Part shown: piece after piece, positions 2,201-8,594 of the stretch
Layout of the letters: every line of letters starts with the position of its first letter
How positions within the stretch are numbered: the stretch's first letter is position 1
Translations under genes and position numbers: made by a program
DNA from: Streptomyces catenulae
GTDB lineage: Bacteria > Actinomycetota > Actinomycetes > Streptomycetales > Streptomycetaceae
Length of the DNA stretch: 64,000 nucleotides
NCBI RefSeq assembly: GCF_000718015.1
Contig: NZ_JODY01000002.1
Span: forward strand, 248,001 to 312,000
Direction: 5' to 3'
Notes under the pieces: model-generated
The model's database searches: none
What the model saw: only the letters and a program-made list of their open reading frames with translations
What the model was told of the DNA's origin: nothing

Positions 2201-2623
2201 TCAGCCCAGGAAGCTCAAGCGCACCTCCCGCCGTGGGTTGTCGACGTTCGTGTCGACCAGGCAGACCGACTGCCATGTCCCCAGTGCCAGGCGGCCGCCG
2301 AGGACGGGGAGGGTTGCGTGGGGTGGGACGAGGGCGGGGAGGACGTGGTCGCGGCCGTGGCCGGGGGTGCCGTGGCGGTGCTGCCAGCGGTTGTCGGCCG
2401 GGAGGAGGGTGCGGAGGGCGGCGAGGAGGTCGTCGTCGCTCCCGGCGCCGGTCTCCAGGATGGCGATACCTGCGGTGGCATGCGGGACGAAGACATTGAG
2501 CAGACCGTCGCCGTCCGGGGCGACCTCCCGGAGGAAGGCGTCGCAGTCGGCGGTGAGGTCCGCGACGGTTTCGTGGGAGCCGGTGGTGACGCTCAGGGTG
2601 CGGGTGGTGAATGCGGTGCTCAT
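2201..2623 (-). CDS. yjbQ: YjbQ/UPF0047 family protein
   Basis: A 140-residue single-domain protein of the YjbQ (UPF0047) family, sometimes described as a secondary thiamine-phosphate synthase. Family features visible are the GLLNVFVPHATAGIAI block, with the conserved histidine of the usual H-T/A-S/T-A-G motif, the NRWQHR segment, and the GTWQSVCLVDTNV segment followed by PRREVRLSFLG at the C-terminus. Length matches the family. The protein is cytoplasmic, with no signal or membrane segment. The gene stands alone on the minus strand, and its stop codon abuts the remains of the AraC pseudogene. The start at 2623 has no strong ribosome site. The physiological role in actinomycetes is uncertain. 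Confidence 0.88.
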   Translation of the reverse strand: MSTAFTTRTLSVTTGSHETVADLTADCDAFLREVAPDGDGLLNVFVPHATAGIAILETGAGSDDDLLAALRTLLPADNRWQHRHGTPGHGRDHVLPALVPPHATLPVLGGRLALGTWQSVCLVDTNVDNPRREVRLSFLG

Positions 2624-2851
2624 GTAGCCATTGTGGGGCGGGGGTGGGGTGCGGTGCGGGAGGGGGCGGGCGGCTGGTCGGTAGACCCGGGCGCCTGCGC
2701 TTGCGTCAGAGCGCGTACCAGTGAGCCCCCGAGGGACACGTTCCGGCGAGCTTCCGGCAAAGCACGTTCCGGCGGCCGCAGGAAGCGCTCACCTGACATT
2801 CCGGCGCCCCGCAATGTGTCCGCAATAAATATCCATCTGCCGAGACGATGA

Positions 2852-2881
2852 TTGACCCGTTCGCGAGGGCGCGGATACGTT
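2852..2881 (+). promoter_or_regulatory. Promoter of the polycysteine leader and ssu operon
   Basis: TTGACC (2852-2857), an 18-base spacer and TACGTT (2876-2881) make a good vegetative-type promoter. Only six bases separate the -10 box from the ATG at 2888, so transcription would start at or next to the A of that ATG. This predicts a leaderless message. The promoter lies where the transcript needed by the downstream sulfonate genes should begin. Confidence 0.6.
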
Positions 2882-2887
2882 CGACGC

Positions 2888-3031
2888 ATGTGGATGCCAG
2901 CCTTGCTCACGACGCGTGGTCATATCGACCTGCTGCGAGTGACGTCTGCCGCGTGTTGTCGCGGCGGTGTGCGGGGCTGTGCGGGGCGGTGTTGCCGCGG
3001 TGGCGATTTCGAGGCCAGTTGTAGCCGCTGA
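2888..3031 (+). CDS. Polycysteine leader peptide (cysteine attenuator)
   Basis: A 47-residue short ORF in the leader of the sulfonate operon, from ATG 2888 (or the in-frame ATG 2894). Residues 7-21 (LTTRGHIDLLRVTSA) match the motif seen in actinobacterial 'putative leader peptides', which precede sulfur genes. It contains six cysteines: codons at 2954, 2957, 2978, 2990, 2993 and 3020. Five are UGU, the less favoured Cys codon in high-GC genomes, and two pairs are adjacent. The predicted start site coincides with the ATG, so it is probably leaderless. In mycobacteria, leaderless polycysteine ORFs act as cysteine-responsive attenuators: ribosomes slowed at Cys codons raise expression of the downstream genes. 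The same role is inferred here for ssuCBAD. Confidence 0.75.
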   Translation: MWMPALLTTRGHIDLLRVTSAACCRGGVRGCAGRCCRGGDFEASCSR

Positions 3032-3333
3032 CGGCCGTCGCGAAGTAGCGACGTGAACTGACCGCTGACGAGCGGTATAGCGGTATATCCCTCACCTCGC
3101 GCCTCCTCTCCCCCTCCCCCTCCCCCTCTTCCTCCCCTCCCCCCACCTCCCGTGAATCGGTGGATTCGTGGAATTCCCACCCCTGGTGGTGAGTTCGCGT
3201 CGCGTCCGAGCCGCGGTGCATGCATTCCGTACGGCGACATTTCCCTACCTCGCCACGCTTTGTCCTTCGCAGCTGGCAGCAATTTCCCCTTCAAGGCAGC
3301 CTTTCCCCCGGGCTGCCGACCCTGGAGTTTCCG
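3032..3333 (+). promoter_or_regulatory. ssu leader region between leader peptide and ssuC
   Basis: These 302 bases hold no convincing gene. They contain a perfect tandem 8-bp repeat (AGCGGTAT at 3071-3078 and 3079-3086), a 50-base pyrimidine tract (3102-3151), and an inverted repeat GAATC-ggtg-GATTC (3154-3167). The ssuC ribosome site is GGAG at 3324-3327. The repeated CUCC of the pyrimidine tract is complementary to it and could sequester it, which is inference only. An in-frame upstream ATG at 3220 would extend ssuC by 38 residues, but has no ribosome site and adds unfamily-like sequence. Confidence 0.5.
3102..3151. repeat. Polypyrimidine/polypurine tract with G-quadruplex potential
   Basis: The plus strand is C and T only except for one A at 3145, with runs such as CCCCC-T-CCCCC. 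The complementary strand carries at least six runs of three or more G within 50 bases, enough for a G-quadruplex. It lies in the transcribed leader of the ssu operon. Confidence 0.7.
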
Positions 3334-4227
3334 ATGAGTCTTGGCCTCAGCCCTAGATCAGCAGGACCGGCGCCGCCCCTCGGGTCGGCGGCGGCACCGG
3401 TCACAGGAACCGCCCCGCGGCCACCCGAGTTGGAGCCGGTCGTCGCCGTCTCCGGGCGTCGGCGCGGGGTACCCCGATGGTTGCGGCGGGTGACAGGGCC
3501 GGTCGCGCTGTTGGTCGTGTGGCAGTTGCTCAGCGCGACGGGGGTGCTCCAGGAGGATGTGCTCGCCTCGCCCGGGGCCATTGCCCGGACTGCCGCGGGG
3601 CTCGTCGCGGACGGGACGTTGCCGTCGGCGATGGTGGTGTCGTTGCAGCGGGTTGCCGTCGGGCTGGTGCTCGGCGGAGTGGTCGGCACCGTTCTGGCGT
3701 TGCTTTCCGGGCTCTCGCGGGTCGGGGAGGATCTGATCGATGCGACGGTACAGATGCTGCGGTCCATTCCGTGGGTGGGTGTCATTCCGCTCTTCATCAT
3801 CTGGCTGGGGATCGGCGAGGCGCCGAAGATCGCGCTGATTGCGCTGGGGGTCGCGTTCCATCTGTATCTGAATGTGTATGCCGGAATCCGGGGCGTGGAC
3901 GCGCAATTGGTCGAGGCGGGTACGTCGTTGGGGCTCGGGAGGTGGGGGCTTGTGCGGCATGTGGTGTTGCCGGGTGCGTTGCCCGGGGCGATGACGGGTT
4001 TGCGGTATTCGCTGGCGACCGCCTGGCTGGCACTGGTCTTCGGTGAGCAGGTGAATGCCGATGACGGTCTCGGGTTTCTGATGAATCAGGCCCGGGAGTT
4101 TTTCCGTACCGATGTGATCGTGGTGTGTCTGGTGGTCTATGCGCTGCTCGGCCTGCTTGCCGATTTTCTCGTCCGCACCCTGGAAAGGCTGTTGCTGCAA
4201 TGGCGACCGACATTCACCGGAAAGTGA
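3334..4227 (+). CDS. ssuC: Sulfonate ABC transporter permease SsuC
   Basis: A 297-residue inner-membrane permease of the BPD_transp_1 type, family SsuC/TauC/nitrate. It has about six hydrophobic segments after a 50-residue Pro/Ala-rich cytoplasmic N-terminus. The EAA loop that contacts the ATPase is clear (EAGTSLGLGRWGLVRHVVLP, followed by GALPGAMTGLR). The start at 3334 is chosen because GGAG lies six bases upstream and nothing upstream resembles the family. It is the first gene of ssuC-ssuB-ssuA-ssuD and overlaps ssuB by 28 bases. It would import alkanesulfonates as a sulfur source. The substrate is inferred from the neighbouring ssuD monooxygenase. Expression is probably controlled by the polycysteine leader upstream. 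Confidence 0.9.
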   Translation: MSLGLSPRSAGPAPPLGSAAAPVTGTAPRPPELEPVVAVSGRRRGVPRWLRRVTGPVALLVVWQLLSATGVLQEDVLASPGAIARTAAGLVADGTLPSAMVVSLQRVAVGLVLGGVVGTVLALLSGLSRVGEDLIDATVQMLRSIPWVGVIPLFIIWLGIGEAPKIALIALGVAFHLYLNVYAGIRGVDAQLVEAGTSLGLGRWGLVRHVVLPGALPGAMTGLRYSLATAWLALVFGEQVNADDGLGFLMNQAREFFRTDVIVVCLVVYALLGLLADFLVRTLERLLLQWRPTFTGK

Positions 4228-5021
4228 GCCCGGGGCCGGGAGAAACCGTCCCGGACGAGGGCCGGGCGGCGGCCGTCCGCGCCCGTGGGCTGGTGCGGGA
4301 ATTCGGCGGGCGGCGGGTGATCGACGGGCTGGAACTGACGCTGGCACCAGGTGAGTTCGTGGCATTGCTGGGGCGCAGCGGATGCGGGAAGTCCACGCTG
4401 CTGCGGGTGCTGGCGGGGCTCGACCGGGAGATCGGTGGCGAGGTGTGGGTGCCGCGCCGGAAGGCGGTGGCGTTCCAGGCGCCGCGGCTGATGCCCTGGA
4501 AGAAGGTGTGGCGCAATGTGCTGCTGGGACTGCCGGGGCGTCCCGAACGTGCCGTGGCGGAGCGGGCGTTGGCGGAGGTCGGGCTGGGGCACCGGTCCGA
4601 CGCCTGGCCGCGGACGCTCTCCGGTGGCGAGGCGCAGCGTGCCTCGCTGGCCCGGGCGCTGGTGCGGGAGCCGGATCTGCTGCTGCTCGACGAGCCGTTC
4701 GGGGCGCTGGACGCGCTGACCCGGATCACCGCGCAGCGGCTGGTCGCGGAGGTGTGGCGGCAGCGGGGCTGCGCGGTGTTGCTGGTCACCCATGACGTGG
4801 ACGAGGCGCTGCTGCTCGCGGACCGTGCGCTGGTGATGGACGAGGGCCGGATCGCGTACGAGACGCCGATCGCGCTGCCCCGACCGCGTACGCCCGCCGA
4901 TCCTGGGTTCGCGGAGCTGCGCACCCGGTTGCTGGACCGCCTCGGGGTGGCGGAGTCGGCGGGTGACGGTGGCGCCGCCTCCGGGAGTGAGCCCGTCGCG
5001 GTGGGCGGGGCGGCGCGATGA
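4200..5021 (+). CDS. ssuB: Sulfonate ABC transporter ATP-binding protein SsuB
   Basis: A 273-residue ABC ATPase with all motifs intact: Walker A GRSGCGKST at residues 58-66, signature LSGGEAQR, Walker B LLLLDEPFGALD and H-loop VTHDVDEA. Like other SsuB/TauB proteins it ends in a short Pro-rich extension. The ATG at 4200 (MATDIHRK) lies inside the end of ssuC, with GGAAAGG about 11 bases upstream. A longer reading from 4125 would add residues encoded entirely within ssuC and is unlikely. It energises the SsuC permease for alkanesulfonate uptake. Confidence 0.9.
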   Translation: MATDIHRKVSPGPGETVPDEGRAAAVRARGLVREFGGRRVIDGLELTLAPGEFVALLGRSGCGKSTLLRVLAGLDREIGGEVWVPRRKAVAFQAPRLMPWKKVWRNVLLGLPGRPERAVAERALAEVGLGHRSDAWPRTLSGGEAQRASLARALVREPDLLLLDEPFGALDALTRITAQRLVAEVWRQRGCAVLLVTHDVDEALLLADRALVMDEGRIAYETPIALPRPRTPADPGFAELRTRLLDRLGVAESAGDGGAASGSEPVAVGGAAR

Positions 5022-6103
5022 CGGTGGCAGCGGAAGGGAGCGGACAGTTGGCGGGAGTACGTGGTCGGCGGCTTGCCGGGGCGGCGTTGTTGGTGCCGCT
5101 CGTGGCATTGCTGGCCGCCTGCGGTGGCGCGTCGCGGGCGGACGGTGCGGCGGGCGGGCGCGGCGGCGATGTCGACGGGAAGGGGTCGCTGACCCTCAAC
5201 GTCGGTGATCAGAAGGGGGGTTCGGAGGCGATTCTGCGGGCCGCCGGGGAGCTGGACGGTCTGACGTACCGGATCAGGTGGTCGACGTTCACGTCCGGGC
5301 CGCCGCTGCTGGAGGCGGTGAACGCCGGTGCCGTGGACATCGGCGGGGTGGGCAACACTCCCCCGGTGTTCGCCGCGGCTGCCAGGTCGAAGATCAAGGT
5401 GGTGGCCGGTGCGCACAGCCGCGCCGAGGGCGATGCACTGCTGGTGCGGAAGGACTCCCCGCTGACGCGGACCGCGCAGCTCAAGGGCAGGTCGATCGCG
5501 GTGGCGCAGGGCAGTTCGGCGCACTACCAGCTTCTGGCACAGCTGCGGAAGGCGGGGCTCTCGCCGAAGGACGTCACGCTGAACTATCTCCAACCCGCCG
5601 ATGCGCTGGCCGCTTTCACCCTCGCCAAGGTGGACGCCTGGGCGATCTGGGACCCGTACACCTCGCAGGCGCTGGATCAGGCCGGTGCGCGGGTGCTCGC
5701 CACCGGGCAGGGCGTGGTCAACGGGCTGAGTTTCCAGGTGGCGGCGCCCGCCGCGCTCGGTGAGGCGAAGAAGGCGGCGGCGCTGAAGGACTACGTCGAG
5801 CGGCTGCGCCGGGCGCAGGACTGGGTGTACGCGCACCCGGACGCCTGGGCGAAGGTGTGGGCGCGGGAGACGGGTATGCCGCAGCGGGTGGCGTTGGACG
5901 CGGTCAGGCGGACCCGGGGCACGGCCGTGCAGGTCGCGTTGGACAAGGCTGCCGTCGCCTCCGAGCAGCGGATCGTCGACGCGTTCGCCCGTGAGGGGCT
6001 GATCCCTCGTTCCTTCGACTTCGGGGAGTTCGTCGACCCCCGTTTCAACCGCGATCTGCCGCCTTCGGGTACGGCACCGCGTTCCTACGGAAAGGCCCAC
6101 TGA
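5018..6103 (+). CDS. ssuA: Sulfonate ABC transporter substrate-binding lipoprotein SsuA
   Basis: A 361-residue periplasmic-binding-type lipoprotein. The signal peptide has Arg residues 15-18, a hydrophobic core and a lipobox LLAAC with the lipidated cysteine at residue 35. The mature part has the SsuA/NMT1-like fold signatures: YRIRWSTFTSGPPLLEAVNAGAVDIGGVGNTPPVFA, written here as two adjoining blocks (YRIRWSTFTSGPPLLEA and VNAGAVDIGGVGNTPP), then QGSSAHYQLLAQL and VDAWAIWDPYTSQAL. The ATG overlaps the ssuB stop (ATGA), so the two are translationally coupled. It delivers alkanesulfonates to SsuCB from outside the cell. Confidence 0.9.
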   Translation: MTVAAEGSGQLAGVRGRRLAGAALLVPLVALLAACGGASRADGAAGGRGGDVDGKGSLTLNVGDQKGGSEAILRAAGELDGLTYRIRWSTFTSGPPLLEAVNAGAVDIGGVGNTPPVFAAAARSKIKVVAGAHSRAEGDALLVRKDSPLTRTAQLKGRSIAVAQGSSAHYQLLAQLRKAGLSPKDVTLNYLQPADALAAFTLAKVDAWAIWDPYTSQALDQAGARVLATGQGVVNGLSFQVAAPAALGEAKKAAALKDYVERLRRAQDWVYAHPDAWAKVWARETGMPQRVALDAVRRTRGTAVQVALDKAAVASEQRIVDAFAREGLIPRSFDFGEFVDPRFNRDLPPSGTAPRSYGKAH

Positions 6104-6104
6104 C

Positions 6105-7310
6105 ATGTCCGTACATCTGCACTGGTTCCTGCCGACCGGCGGCGACGGGCGCACCCTGGTCGACCGGCACGCCTATACCGACGGCGGTATCAAGCGTGAC
6201 CGGATCACGCCGGTCAGCGGGGTGCGTGCGCCTGATGTCGAGTACCTCGCGCAGATCGCCAAGGCGGCCGAGCAGTTGGGTTTCGAGGCGGTGCTGACGC
6301 CGACCGGTACGTGGTGCGAGGACGCCTGGTTGACGACGACGGCGCTGACGCAGGTCACCGACCGGCTGAAGTTCCTGGTGGCGTTCCGGCCGGGGGTGAT
6401 CTCGCCGGTGCTGGCCGCGCAGATGGCCGCGACGTACCAGCGGCTCTCGCGCGGGCGGCTGCTGCTGAACGTGGTCACCGGCGGCGACTCCACCGAGCAG
6501 AAGCGGTTCGGCGATCATCTCGACCATGATCGGCGCTATGCCCGCACCGATGAGTTCCTCCAGGTCGTACGGGGTGTGTGGAGCGGGAAGCCGTTCGACT
6601 TCCACGGGGAGCACTACCAGGTGGAGGGCGGGCTGACGGCGCTGCCGCCGGATCCGCTGCCGCAGATCTTCTTCGGCGGTTCGTCGGCGGCGGCGGGGCC
6701 GGTGGCCGCGCGGAACGTCGATGTGTATCTGACCTGGGGTGAGCCGCCGGAGCAGGTGCGGCAGAAGATCGAGTGGATCCGGGGGCTGGCCGAGCAGGAG
6801 GGCCGTGAGGTCCGCTTCGGGATCCGGCTGCACACCATCTCCCGCGACTCGTCGAAGGAGGCGTGGGCGACCGCCGACCGGCTGCTCGGGGATCTGGATC
6901 CGGACACCGTGGCCGCGGCGCAGCAGGCTCTGGGGAAGAGCGAGTCGGTGGGTCAGCAGCGGATGCTGGCGCTGCACGGCGGCTCCCGGGACAAGCTGGA
7001 GATCGCGCCGAATCTGTGGGCCGGGGTCGGTCTGGTACGCGGTGGCGCCGGAACCGCGCTGGTCGGCAGTCATGCGGAGGTCGCCGACCGGATCGAGGAG
7101 TACCACGCGCTGGGCGTCGAGCACTTCGTTTTGTCCGGCTATCCGCATCTGGAGGAGGCGTACTGGTTCGGTGAGGGCGTCCGTCCCGAGCTGGCGGCGC
7201 GGGGGCTGCTCGCCGGGGTCCCGGCGCCGCTGGAGGGCGTCCCGGCGGCCAATGGCCGACCGGCGTCCGCGCCCGGCGGGGCGCCGCTGCTGGTCGCCGG
7301 CGGGCGCTGA
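6105..7310 (+). CDS. ssuD: FMNH2-dependent alkanesulfonate monooxygenase SsuD
   Basis: A 401-residue bacterial luciferase-like TIM-barrel enzyme, close to SsuD: N-terminal LHWFLPTGGD, LKFLVAFRPGVISP, RLLLNVVTGGDSTEQKRFGD, and IFFGGSSAAAGPVAA. It desulfonates C1-type alkanesulfonates to aldehyde and sulfite using reduced flavin. The C-terminal 40 residues are an Ala/Pro/Gly tail beyond the usual family length of about 380. It starts two bases after the ssuA stop, with GGAAAGG upstream. No ssuE-type NAD(P)H:FMN reductase is encoded nearby, so FMNH2 must come from elsewhere. Confidence 0.93.
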   Translation: MSVHLHWFLPTGGDGRTLVDRHAYTDGGIKRDRITPVSGVRAPDVEYLAQIAKAAEQLGFEAVLTPTGTWCEDAWLTTTALTQVTDRLKFLVAFRPGVISPVLAAQMAATYQRLSRGRLLLNVVTGGDSTEQKRFGDHLDHDRRYARTDEFLQVVRGVWSGKPFDFHGEHYQVEGGLTALPPDPLPQIFFGGSSAAAGPVAARNVDVYLTWGEPPEQVRQKIEWIRGLAEQEGREVRFGIRLHTISRDSSKEAWATADRLLGDLDPDTVAAAQQALGKSESVGQQRMLALHGGSRDKLEIAPNLWAGVGLVRGGAGTALVGSHAEVADRIEEYHALGVEHFVLSGYPHLEEAYWFGEGVRPELAARGLLAGVPAPLEGVPAANGRPASAPGGAPLLVAGGR

Positions 7311-7400
7311 GCCGTCGCCCGTCCCGGGGCGGTCGGGTCCGTTCCGTCACGTCGGTGGCGGTACGGGAAGATCCGGCCGCCCCGGGTGGTTGGTGCGGGC

Positions 7401-8594
7401 ATGGACGACAGCGGTGGGCCGGGCGCGGTGCGTGAGGTCGAGGTGGCGGTGATCGGTGCAGGTCAGGCGGGGTTGTCGGCCGCCTTCCACCTGGGGCGGG
7501 CGGGGTATGTGCCCGACCGTGACACCGTGCTGCTCGACCAGGCGCCGCACCCGGGCGGCGCCTGGCAGTTCCGCTGGCCGACGCTGACGTACGCGAAGGT
7601 GCACGGGATGCACGCGTTGCCGGGCATGGAGCTGACCGGCGCCGATCCGGAGCGTCCGTCGGCGGAGGTGATCGGCGGCTACTTCGCCCGCTACGAGGAG
7701 CGCTTCGGGCTGCGTCCGCACCGGCCCGTCGAGGTGTCGGCGGTGCGGCCCGGTCCCGGCGCGCGACTGCTGGTGGAGACGTCGGAGGGGACGTATGCGG
7801 CGCGGGGGCTGATCAGTGCGACGGGTACCTGGGACCGTCCGTTCGTGCCGCGTCTGCCGGGCCAGGAGGTGTTCCGGGGGCGGCAGTTGCACAGTGCGCG
7901 GTATCCGGGGCCGGAGGCGTTCCGCGGGAAGCGGGTCGTGGTGATCGGTGGTGGGACGTCGGCGGTGCAGCAGTTGCTGGAGATCGCGCCGGTGGCGGCG
8001 GCCACGGTCTGGGTGACGCGGCGGCCACCGGTCTTCCGGGACGGCCCGTTCGGTGCGGCGGAGGGCCGGGCGGCGGTCGCGGCGGTGGAGCGCCGGGTCC
8101 GTGAGGGGCTGCCGCCGCGCAGTGTGGTGAGCGTGACGGGTCTGCCGATGACGGAGGCGGTGCGCCGGGCCCGTGCGGAGGGGGTGCTGCGGCGGTTGCC
8201 GATGTTCGAGCGGATCACCGAGGACGGTGTGGTCTGGGCGGACGGCAGCGCCGTCGCCGCCGACACGCTGCTGTACGCGACGGGGTTCCGCGCGTCGATC
8301 GGCCATCTCGCGCCGCTGCGGCTGCGGGAGCCGGGCGGCGGCATCCGTCTGGCGGGGACCCGGGCGGTGCGCGATCCGCGGGTGCATCTGGTGGGGTACG
8401 GCCCGTCGGCGAGCACCATCGGGGCGAACCGCGCGGGGCGGGCGGCCGTCCACGACCTGGGGCAACTGCTCGGCGGTGCGCCGCATCCGTCAGGTGCGGG
8501 CGGGGAGGACTCGCGCGGCGCCCGTACGGAGGACGGCGCCCGCCCGGGAAGGGAACACACGAACGCGGGATCGAGTGTTCGCCAGAAGGCGTGA
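7401..8594 (+). CDS. FAD-dependent oxidoreductase (flavin monooxygenase-like)
   Basis: A 397-residue two-dinucleotide-binding flavoprotein. The FAD-binding GxGxxG is VIGAGQAGLSAA near the N-terminus, followed by the PGGAWQFRW motif typical of the class-B flavin monooxygenase/CzcO-like group. The NAD(P)H site is VVVIGGGTSAVQQ in the middle, and an ATGF motif (LLYATGFRAS) closes the fold. The ATG at 7401 is preferred over the in-frame GTG at 7386, since both are followed by the same domain. It lies 90 bases after ssuD on the same strand and may be read with the sulfonate operon. A role in organosulfur oxidation is possible but unproven. Confidence 0.8.
   Translation: MDDSGGPGAVREVEVAVIGAGQAGLSAAFHLGRAGYVPDRDTVLLDQAPHPGGAWQFRWPTLTYAKVHGMHALPGMELTGADPERPSAEVIGGYFARYEERFGLRPHRPVEVSAVRPGPGARLLVETSEGTYAARGLISATGTWDRPFVPRLPGQEVFRGRQLHSARYPGPEAFRGKRVVVIGGGTSAVQQLLEIAPVAAATVWVTRRPPVFRDGPFGAAEGRAAVAAVERRVREGLPPRSVVSVTGLPMTEAVRRARAEGVLRRLPMFERITEDGVVWADGSAVAADTLLYATGFRASIGHLAPLRLREPGGGIRLAGTRAVRDPRVHLVGYGPSASTIGANRAGRAAVHDLGQLLGGAPHPSGAGGEDSRGARTEDGARPGREHTNAGSSVRQKA

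Follow-up and report, generated by a model that had tools for sequence, protein, structure and literature searches.

The window analysed here, a stretch of 64,000 nucleotides from Streptomyces catenulae, carries a short open reading frame at 2888-3031 (+), which begins with the ATG at 2888, comprises 47 codons followed by TGA and encodes the product MWMPALLTTRGHIDLLRVTSAACCRGGVRGCAGRCCRGGDFEASCSR. Six of its codons specify cysteine (TGT at codons 23, 24, 31, 35 and 45, TGC at codon 36), five of them being UGU, and they are arranged as two pairs, contiguous at codons 23-24 and 35-36, and two singles, as a sequence-only reading of this DNA had described them. Cysteine makes up 0.84% of the codons in the called genes of the same genome. 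The ATG of ssuC is found at 3334, after a gap of 302 nt from the stop of the leader ORF; the same reading had placed ssuCBAD 302 bases downstream and ended its feature at 3333, one base short. The leader feature is real and the earlier description is correct to within one base.

The genes that follow on the plus strand are those of a sulfonate operon. The first, ssuC (3334..4227, +), encodes a sulfonate ABC transporter permease (PF00528, 6e-30; best NCBIfam match SsuC, 2e-69, below its cut-off) and is followed by ssuB (4200..5021, +), encoding an ABC ATPase whose start position is tentative and whose best NCBIfam match is an aliphatic sulfonates ATP-binding protein (5.1e-71, below cut-off). 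The gene ssuA (5018..6103, +) encodes the substrate-binding protein (TIGR01728, 193.6 bits, above cut-off) and ssuD (6105..7310, +) the alkanesulfonate monooxygenase (NF001939, 2e-142, below cut-off; PF00296). Shortly 3' of ssuD, at 7386-8594, lies a gene for a flavin monooxygenase with an ArsO-type best match (4e-87, below cut-off), which may be part of the operon.

Upstream of the leader ORF a -35 hexamer TTGACC (2852..2857, +) and a -10 hexamer TACGTT, of the form TAnnnT (2876..2881, +), are separated by 18 nt, and the ATG lies 6 nt past the -10. In all 78 ssu leaders examined (77 relatives and the window) TTGACC is found at the equivalent place and TAnnnT 6 or 7 nt 5' of the ATG. This complete layout was present in none of 3574 control ATGs, these being the other plus-strand ATGs of the same ssu loci with the window's own leader left out. 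A generic sigma-70 scan of 2700-3400, which demands E. coli-like hexamers, reported no promoter. The consensus described for S. lividans from mapped starts is TAnnnT and nTGACn, and 17% of the transcripts of that species are given as leaderless (PMC8079986). From the promoter layout we infer that transcription of the window's leader probably begins on the A of ATG 2888 or close to it and yields a leaderless transcript, in agreement with the sequence-only reading, which had put the start at the ATG.

Conservation before ssuC and the NF042934 family

The comparison of ssu leaders across Streptomyces that had been proposed together with the first description was carried out on the best 80 of 117 ssuC relatives, all of which are Streptomyces and hence close relatives. 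A leader ORF precedes ssuC in 78 of these 80 loci, each with UGU at the last Cys of the motif. A regular expression recovered 77 of them; the remaining one (L093) falls outside it, having its first R changed to Cys with the UGU kept. One locus (L087) has no leader candidate within 1200 nt, and in another (L083), whose contig begins 120 bases before the match, no leader was found. The detailed ssu set consists of 78 leaders, the 77 relatives and the window, or 79 when L093 is added. When the window peptide itself was used as query, 71 of 150 Streptomyces genomes gave a match.

The leader ORF matches NCBIfam profile NF042934, "putative leader peptide" (cis_reg_atten), with 26.5 bits in hmmscan and 27.1 bits at the same locus in a whole-genome profile search, the cut-off being 27. 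It contains the motif R-x-[HA]-x-D-L-x-R with a Cys at fixed spacing, the residues being R10, D14, R17 and C23. Five further matches in the S. catenulae genome exceed the cut-off, and a sixth, which falls short of it, looks genuine. The genes after these six leaders encode a sulfite/nitrite reductase, a cysteine dioxygenase, a 3-mercaptopyruvate-type sulfurtransferase, a cysteine synthase, a flavin reductase and a sodium:dicarboxylate-type symporter; in front of the cysteine synthase gene there is a small cysO-like ORF, recognised by eye.

Matches to NF042934 are found in 41 of 41 genomes of the genus (40 and the own genome), with 4-16 in each at an E-value of up to 0.01, and, for the class, in 110 of 148 genomes at an E-value of up to 0.001. 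None of 14 control genomes gave a match at either threshold; at a loose E of 10 in a whole-genome search 10 of the 14 also match, none of them above the cut-off. According to Pfam, the downstream ORFs (n=117) are mainly sulfur genes: rhodanese 34, sulfite/nitrite reductase 24, luciferase-like monooxygenase 11, sulfatase 8, PALP 7, PAPS reductase 6 and cysteine dioxygenase 5. Those that are not obvious sulfur genes include ROK (3), POR (2) and family-5 binding proteins (2). These counts come from 58 of the 105 ORFs of the training set and from all 59 of the held-out set, with L206 and L275 yielding no downstream ORF, and the downstream gene is the best-scoring long ORF of each locus, which sometimes skips a short first gene such as cysO.

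Judged by its profile match and motif, the window ORF is best placed among the sulfur leader peptides of the actinobacterial family NF042934. The sequence-only reading had noted that putative leader peptides of actinobacteria sit before sulfur genes, and the profile match, together with the mostly sulfur-related genes that follow other members, bears this out. The window ORF resembles the rest of the family in the motif, in the Cys at the motif end and in its position 5' of sulfur genes. It differs by a Cys-rich tail of 24 codons, shared among the compared ssu leaders only with S. benahoarensis.

Several further observations were made on the family. Sulfatases recur as the downstream gene in the training set (8 of 58 ORFs), and a cysteine dioxygenase (L002 in the own genome, PF05995 5e-40; 5 of 58 training ORFs) lies under the same leader as the assimilation genes. 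A leader type VHxDLxRYAG recurs in 18 of 107 leaders and may regularly accompany cysteine dioxygenase. On contig C251 of genome G169 two leaders, at 3248-3301 (-) and 3429-3485 (+), are about 130 bases apart and apparently divergent. The metL leader of S. lividans, before metNIQ, is listed in PMC8079986 as a methionine-import attenuator, with its methionines and threonines named; it contains CMCRRMC, and given this it may be a cysteine leader.

The invariant UGU codon, the nascent chain and the cysteine tail

The last Cys of the motif (profile position 19), which in the window is the codon at 2954..2956 (+) and is proposed here as the arrest codon, is encoded by UGU in all 245 leaders compared, that is in 79 of 79 ssu leaders (L093 included), 106 of 106 non-ssu leaders and 60 of 60 held-out leaders. 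In the own genome the count is 7 of 7, window included. Apart from the ssu and held-out leaders, the material consisted of 107 leaders including the window, 7 from the own genome, 70 from the genus search and 30 from the class search (3 of these belonging to the genus again). The held-out set of 60 loci, taken from the class search, comes from 48 genomes of 22 families, none of them Streptomyces, and was picked after both of the rules described here had appeared. The 245 rows correspond to 227 distinct coding stretches, and these share descent and are not independent; moreover the loci were chosen by hand, mainly among those with high scores, and do not form a random sample. The profile and the selection act on amino acids, and as the matches reach position 19 they favour the Cys but not its codon.

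This codon is the rarer one, with 141 UGU against 848 UGC (14% UGU) in the called genes of the own genome. The other Cys codons of the leaders number 20 UGU versus 124 UGC in the non-ssu set (102 distinct stretches) and 6 versus 53 in the held-out set. A G directly after the invariant UGU is absent from all 245 leaders (0 of 79 ssu, 0 of 106 non-ssu and 0 of 60 held-out), as against 388 of 852 (46%) after Cys codons in the background. For the held-out set Fisher tests gave 2e-27 for the codon and 1e-15 for the next base, values that ignore the kinship among leaders. In the ssu leaders (65 distinct stretches) the other Cys codons are 35 UGU and 59 UGC; a Cys codon directly after the invariant one is UGU in 16 of 19 cases, and a Cys at the fourth place is UGC in 31 of 32. 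"UGC elsewhere" is therefore a better description of the other leaders than of the ssu leaders, in which UGU is also favoured beside the invariant codon. Three leaders (L214, L216 and L217) have runs such as GCCCCCCSC before the stop, with TGT still at position 19.

A single tRNA, with anticodon GCA, decodes UGC as well as UGU, the latter through a G-U wobble, and a codon followed by a pyrimidine generally stands in a weak context. The wobble together with a weak 3' context would make this a very slow Cys codon; the dependence of leuL-type leaders on rare codons is a precedent. The accessible portions of the literature found hold no statement of the UGU rule, of the not-G rule or of a Streptomyces cysteine leader. 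The NF042934 family is known already, and the UGU rule is the new part.

The residues before the UGU are also nearly fixed. Among 140 distinct 19-residue peptides the D at -9, the R at -6 and the C at 0 are invariant, and the R at -13 is present in 139. In the window the codons of this R (2915), D (2927) and R (2936) lie within 2915..2938 (+). This conservation is partly built into the profile with which the loci were found and is weaker evidence than the codon. With the UGU in the A site, the R, D and R would sit 12, 8 and 5 residues before the P-site residue.

What comes after the UGU is far more variable. The tails of the ssu leaders have a median length of 4 residues. Of their 399 residues in total 105 are Cys, but in 20 of the 78 leaders the tail lacks Cys altogether, and in 24 of 78 another Cys codon comes immediately behind the invariant UGU. 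In seven non-ssu leaders the UGU is the last codon before the stop. The 24-codon tail of the window's leader (2957..3028, +) contains five of the six Cys codons of this ORF, only the first UGU (2954-2956) being invariant, and a tail of 24 residues occurs in just one other of the 78 ssu leaders, that of S. benahoarensis (L018). An extreme Cys run in one species is the tail RRGDGCCCYCCCYC of the S. violens ssu leader (L023). The Cys run is thus favoured yet not needed, and the single UGU is the fixed feature. The idea of a polycysteine ORF acting as the sensor accordingly stands in part: the ssu tails are rich in Cys and UGU, but the run is not essential.

The spacer before ssuC and a proposed Rho-dependent output

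The region from the leader stop to ssuC (3032..3333, +) is C-rich and G-poor (C 0.41, G 0.24) and is proposed here as a Rho-loading region. The C-over-G skew is 0.227 in 68 ssu leaders versus 0.066 in 138 ordinary leaders, this control resting on crude gene calls in one genome, and the window's own skew stands at the 87th percentile of the ordinary leaders. In both sets of family leaders, ssu and non-ssu, C rises and G falls from the stop codon onward. The genome carries a rho gene (655.9 bits). An Rfam search of 2600-3500 gave no match near the gathering score. The spacer varies from 90 to 511 nt in the loci with an ssuC start found and has no conserved sequence. A hungry-codon frameshift running through the spacer was considered and rejected: counted from the UGU, the +1/-1 frames close after a median of 39/26 codons in the ssu leaders and after 33/23 in the window, before ssuC is reached, and past the stop of the other leaders none of the three frames is much more open than the remaining two.

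Because the spacer is C-rich and G-poor from the stop codon onward and rho is present, Rho-dependent attenuation is favoured as the likelier candidate for the output. From the computed features (the family, its gene setting, the promoter layout, the UGU and not-G rules, the near-invariant R/D/R, the C-rich leader and the rho gene) a reading can be built which we hold to be somewhat better than an even bet, namely that the family leader arrests the ribosome at the UGU when Cys-tRNA is scarce and that Rho-dependent attenuation is the output. RNA polymerase would start at or near the A of ATG 2888, and because it starts there a ribosome could engage the 5' end at once. After 22 residues the nascent chain LTTRGHIDLLRVTSAA would fill the upper exit tunnel with the UGU at 2954 in the A site, and this codon, wobble-read and never followed by G, would be the slowest place for Cys-tRNA. 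With Cys-tRNA scarce the ribosome would stay there; with Cys-tRNA plentiful it would move on, terminate and depart, exposing the bare C-rich leader. On the bare leader Rho would load and end transcription before ssuC, whereas a ribosome arrested at the leader edge would keep Rho off and ssuCBAD would be made, so that cysteine would be the signal and its shortage the inducing condition. We infer this polarity.

Some points speak against this model of arrest and Rho. A ribosome stalled at the UGU covers little of the spacer, and the blocking of Rho loading further on is unaccounted for. The cysteine dioxygenase found under such a leader consumes cysteine, which sits badly with a simple induction by shortage. 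Finally, the first UGU of the ssu subfamily is not alone, as the codon counts given above indicate (35 UGU versus 59 UGC, and 16 of 19 directly after it).

A wider form of the proposal is that the whole family is one codon-specific arrest machine, in which the R/D/R chain and a single wobble-read UGU would pass sulfur status to Rho. It is put forward tentatively, as a possibility that we would not bet on. In such a machine a single codon-anticodon contact would report sulfur status, and the signal could be the charging of tRNA-Cys or a sulfur-dependent modification of A37 beside the anticodon, and the "polycysteine" character would be a decoration added in some lineages.

Alternative readings and related systems

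In mycobacterial attenuation the ribosome site of the next gene is reportedly sequestered in leader RNA structure, and the mycobacterial polycysteine leaderless short ORFs are said to have been treated by Canestrari et al. in 2020. The leader of the window shares with these short ORFs adjacent Cys codons, sulfur genes downstream and, probably, a leaderless start (PMC9031893, PMC13236596, PMC9094748), an earlier proposal being that of PMC4633059, and the mycobacterial case is called translation attenuation in the literature (PMC13236596, PMC9031893). A translation attenuation as in M. smegmatis, in which leader RNA would mask the downstream gene's ribosome site until a ribosome stalled at the Cys codons opened it, is nevertheless rather unlikely here. 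The ssuC ribosome site TGGAG (3323..3327, +) is weak, a GGAG preceding the start in most loci (with the starts chosen by this same score), and in predicted folds it is mostly paired (mean unpaired 0.15), which is what such a mechanism would want. However, for the window's GGAG the folds predict an accessibility of 0.17 when the leader is free, 0.17 with a ribosome at the UGU and 0.19 with one at the stop. Over 67 loci masking a ribosome at the UGU changes the mean accessibility by -0.005, and relative to the stop-codon state the UGU-stalled state is more than 0.1 higher in 5 of 67 loci and more than 0.1 lower in 1 of 67. The 67 loci are those of the 79 ssu loci left after 12 were omitted (L093 and loci without an ssuC start, without a GGAG or with a long spacer), and their ssuC starts were chosen by ribosome-site score. 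The sequence-only reading had suggested that a CUCC tract could pair with the ssuC ribosome site, in a mechanism not obviously that of mycobacteria, and that folding with and without a stalled ribosome would bear on this; the predicted folds give no support to such a pairing under ribosome control. The variable length of the spacer and its lack of a conserved sequence also count against translation attenuation. As far as folding can, the unchanged accessibility speaks against a mycobacterial-type mechanism here. The Streptomyces ssu leaders thus differ from the mycobacterial short ORFs: they can do without the Cys run, and in their predicted folds a stalled ribosome does not release the ribosome site.

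Less probable still is a tunnel sensor of the TnaC kind, in which the nascent chain would bind cysteine or a sulfur metabolite and the arrest would depend on this ligand and not on uncharged tRNA. TnaC is described as requiring W12, D16, I19 and P24, the last of which occupies the peptidyl transfer centre, and as acting by blocking Rho at a rut that adjoins the stop codon (PMC10941005). The offsets of 12, 8 and 5 of R/D/R equal those of W12, D16 and I19 from P24 (PMC10941005), and an arrest at high cysteine would fit the cysteine dioxygenase under a leader. On the other hand, the match of offsets was noticed after the fact, TnaC having been chosen among several arrest peptides, and may be a coincidence; a ligand sensor leaves a position that is UGU and never UGC unexplained; and an arrest at high cysteine would turn on the assimilation genes at the wrong time. 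The likeness to the E. coli tna operon consists of the proposed arrest near the stop codon, the C-rich region from the stop and the equal tunnel offsets. The arrest of TnaC takes place at a stop codon when tryptophan is high (PMC10941005), whereas here the A site would contain a sense codon and a shortage is proposed as the signal. No homology is claimed.

At the nucleotide level the ssu leaders show several fixed synonymous sites: GGT (78 of 78; 11% usage), TCA (53 of 54; 2% usage), CTC and GTG (each 78 of 78). At invariant amino acids the codons are fixed beyond the level of ssuC, one of the ssuC control sequences for this comparison being only 6 codons long. A possible RNA hairpin lies within the ORF of the ssu leaders (2907..2942 in the window, +). 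Its 14 pairs have 99.3% of cells paired versus 29-48% for slid versions; 10 of the 14 pairs never vary, and only one pair is changed on both sides. Pause hairpins occur in trp leaders, and the hairpin of the ssu core might be one.

Such a pause hairpin, together with tails rich in Cys and UGU, could belong to a classical attenuator of the trp type with an intrinsic terminator and the Cys run as its sensing codons. For the trp, leu and ilv genes of S. lividans, leaderless leader peptides with proposed terminators have been described (PMC8079986). We regard this as very improbable here, given that no terminator-like site or intrinsic terminator hairpin with a T run was found at 2700-3400, and given the ssu tails that hold no further Cys and the non-ssu leaders that stop right after the UGU. 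The cysS attenuator uORFC-8-2 of the Rhodobacterales is similar in its tandem Cys codons and in being a short ORF before a cysteine gene (PMC8632094). It has an intrinsic terminator and mostly UGC, whereas the scan of 2700-3400 gave no terminator and UGU encodes the motif Cys in every leader compared.

That the nucleotide conservation merely reflects a DNA or RNA site for a binding protein, with the peptide incidental, is hardly credible: the fixed synonymous sites of the ssu leaders and the small dyad GGTC-N5-GACC would suit it, but in the other leaders the synonymous sites mostly vary while the key amino acids and the UGU stay.

The leader before ssuC links the use of sulfonates in Streptomyces to a family of leader peptides that extends through the genus and the class. 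The UGU and not-G rules reduce the question of cysteine sensing in actinobacteria to one synonymous base change. If the UGU rule holds true in the cell, readings that are centred on polycysteine runs would need revision.
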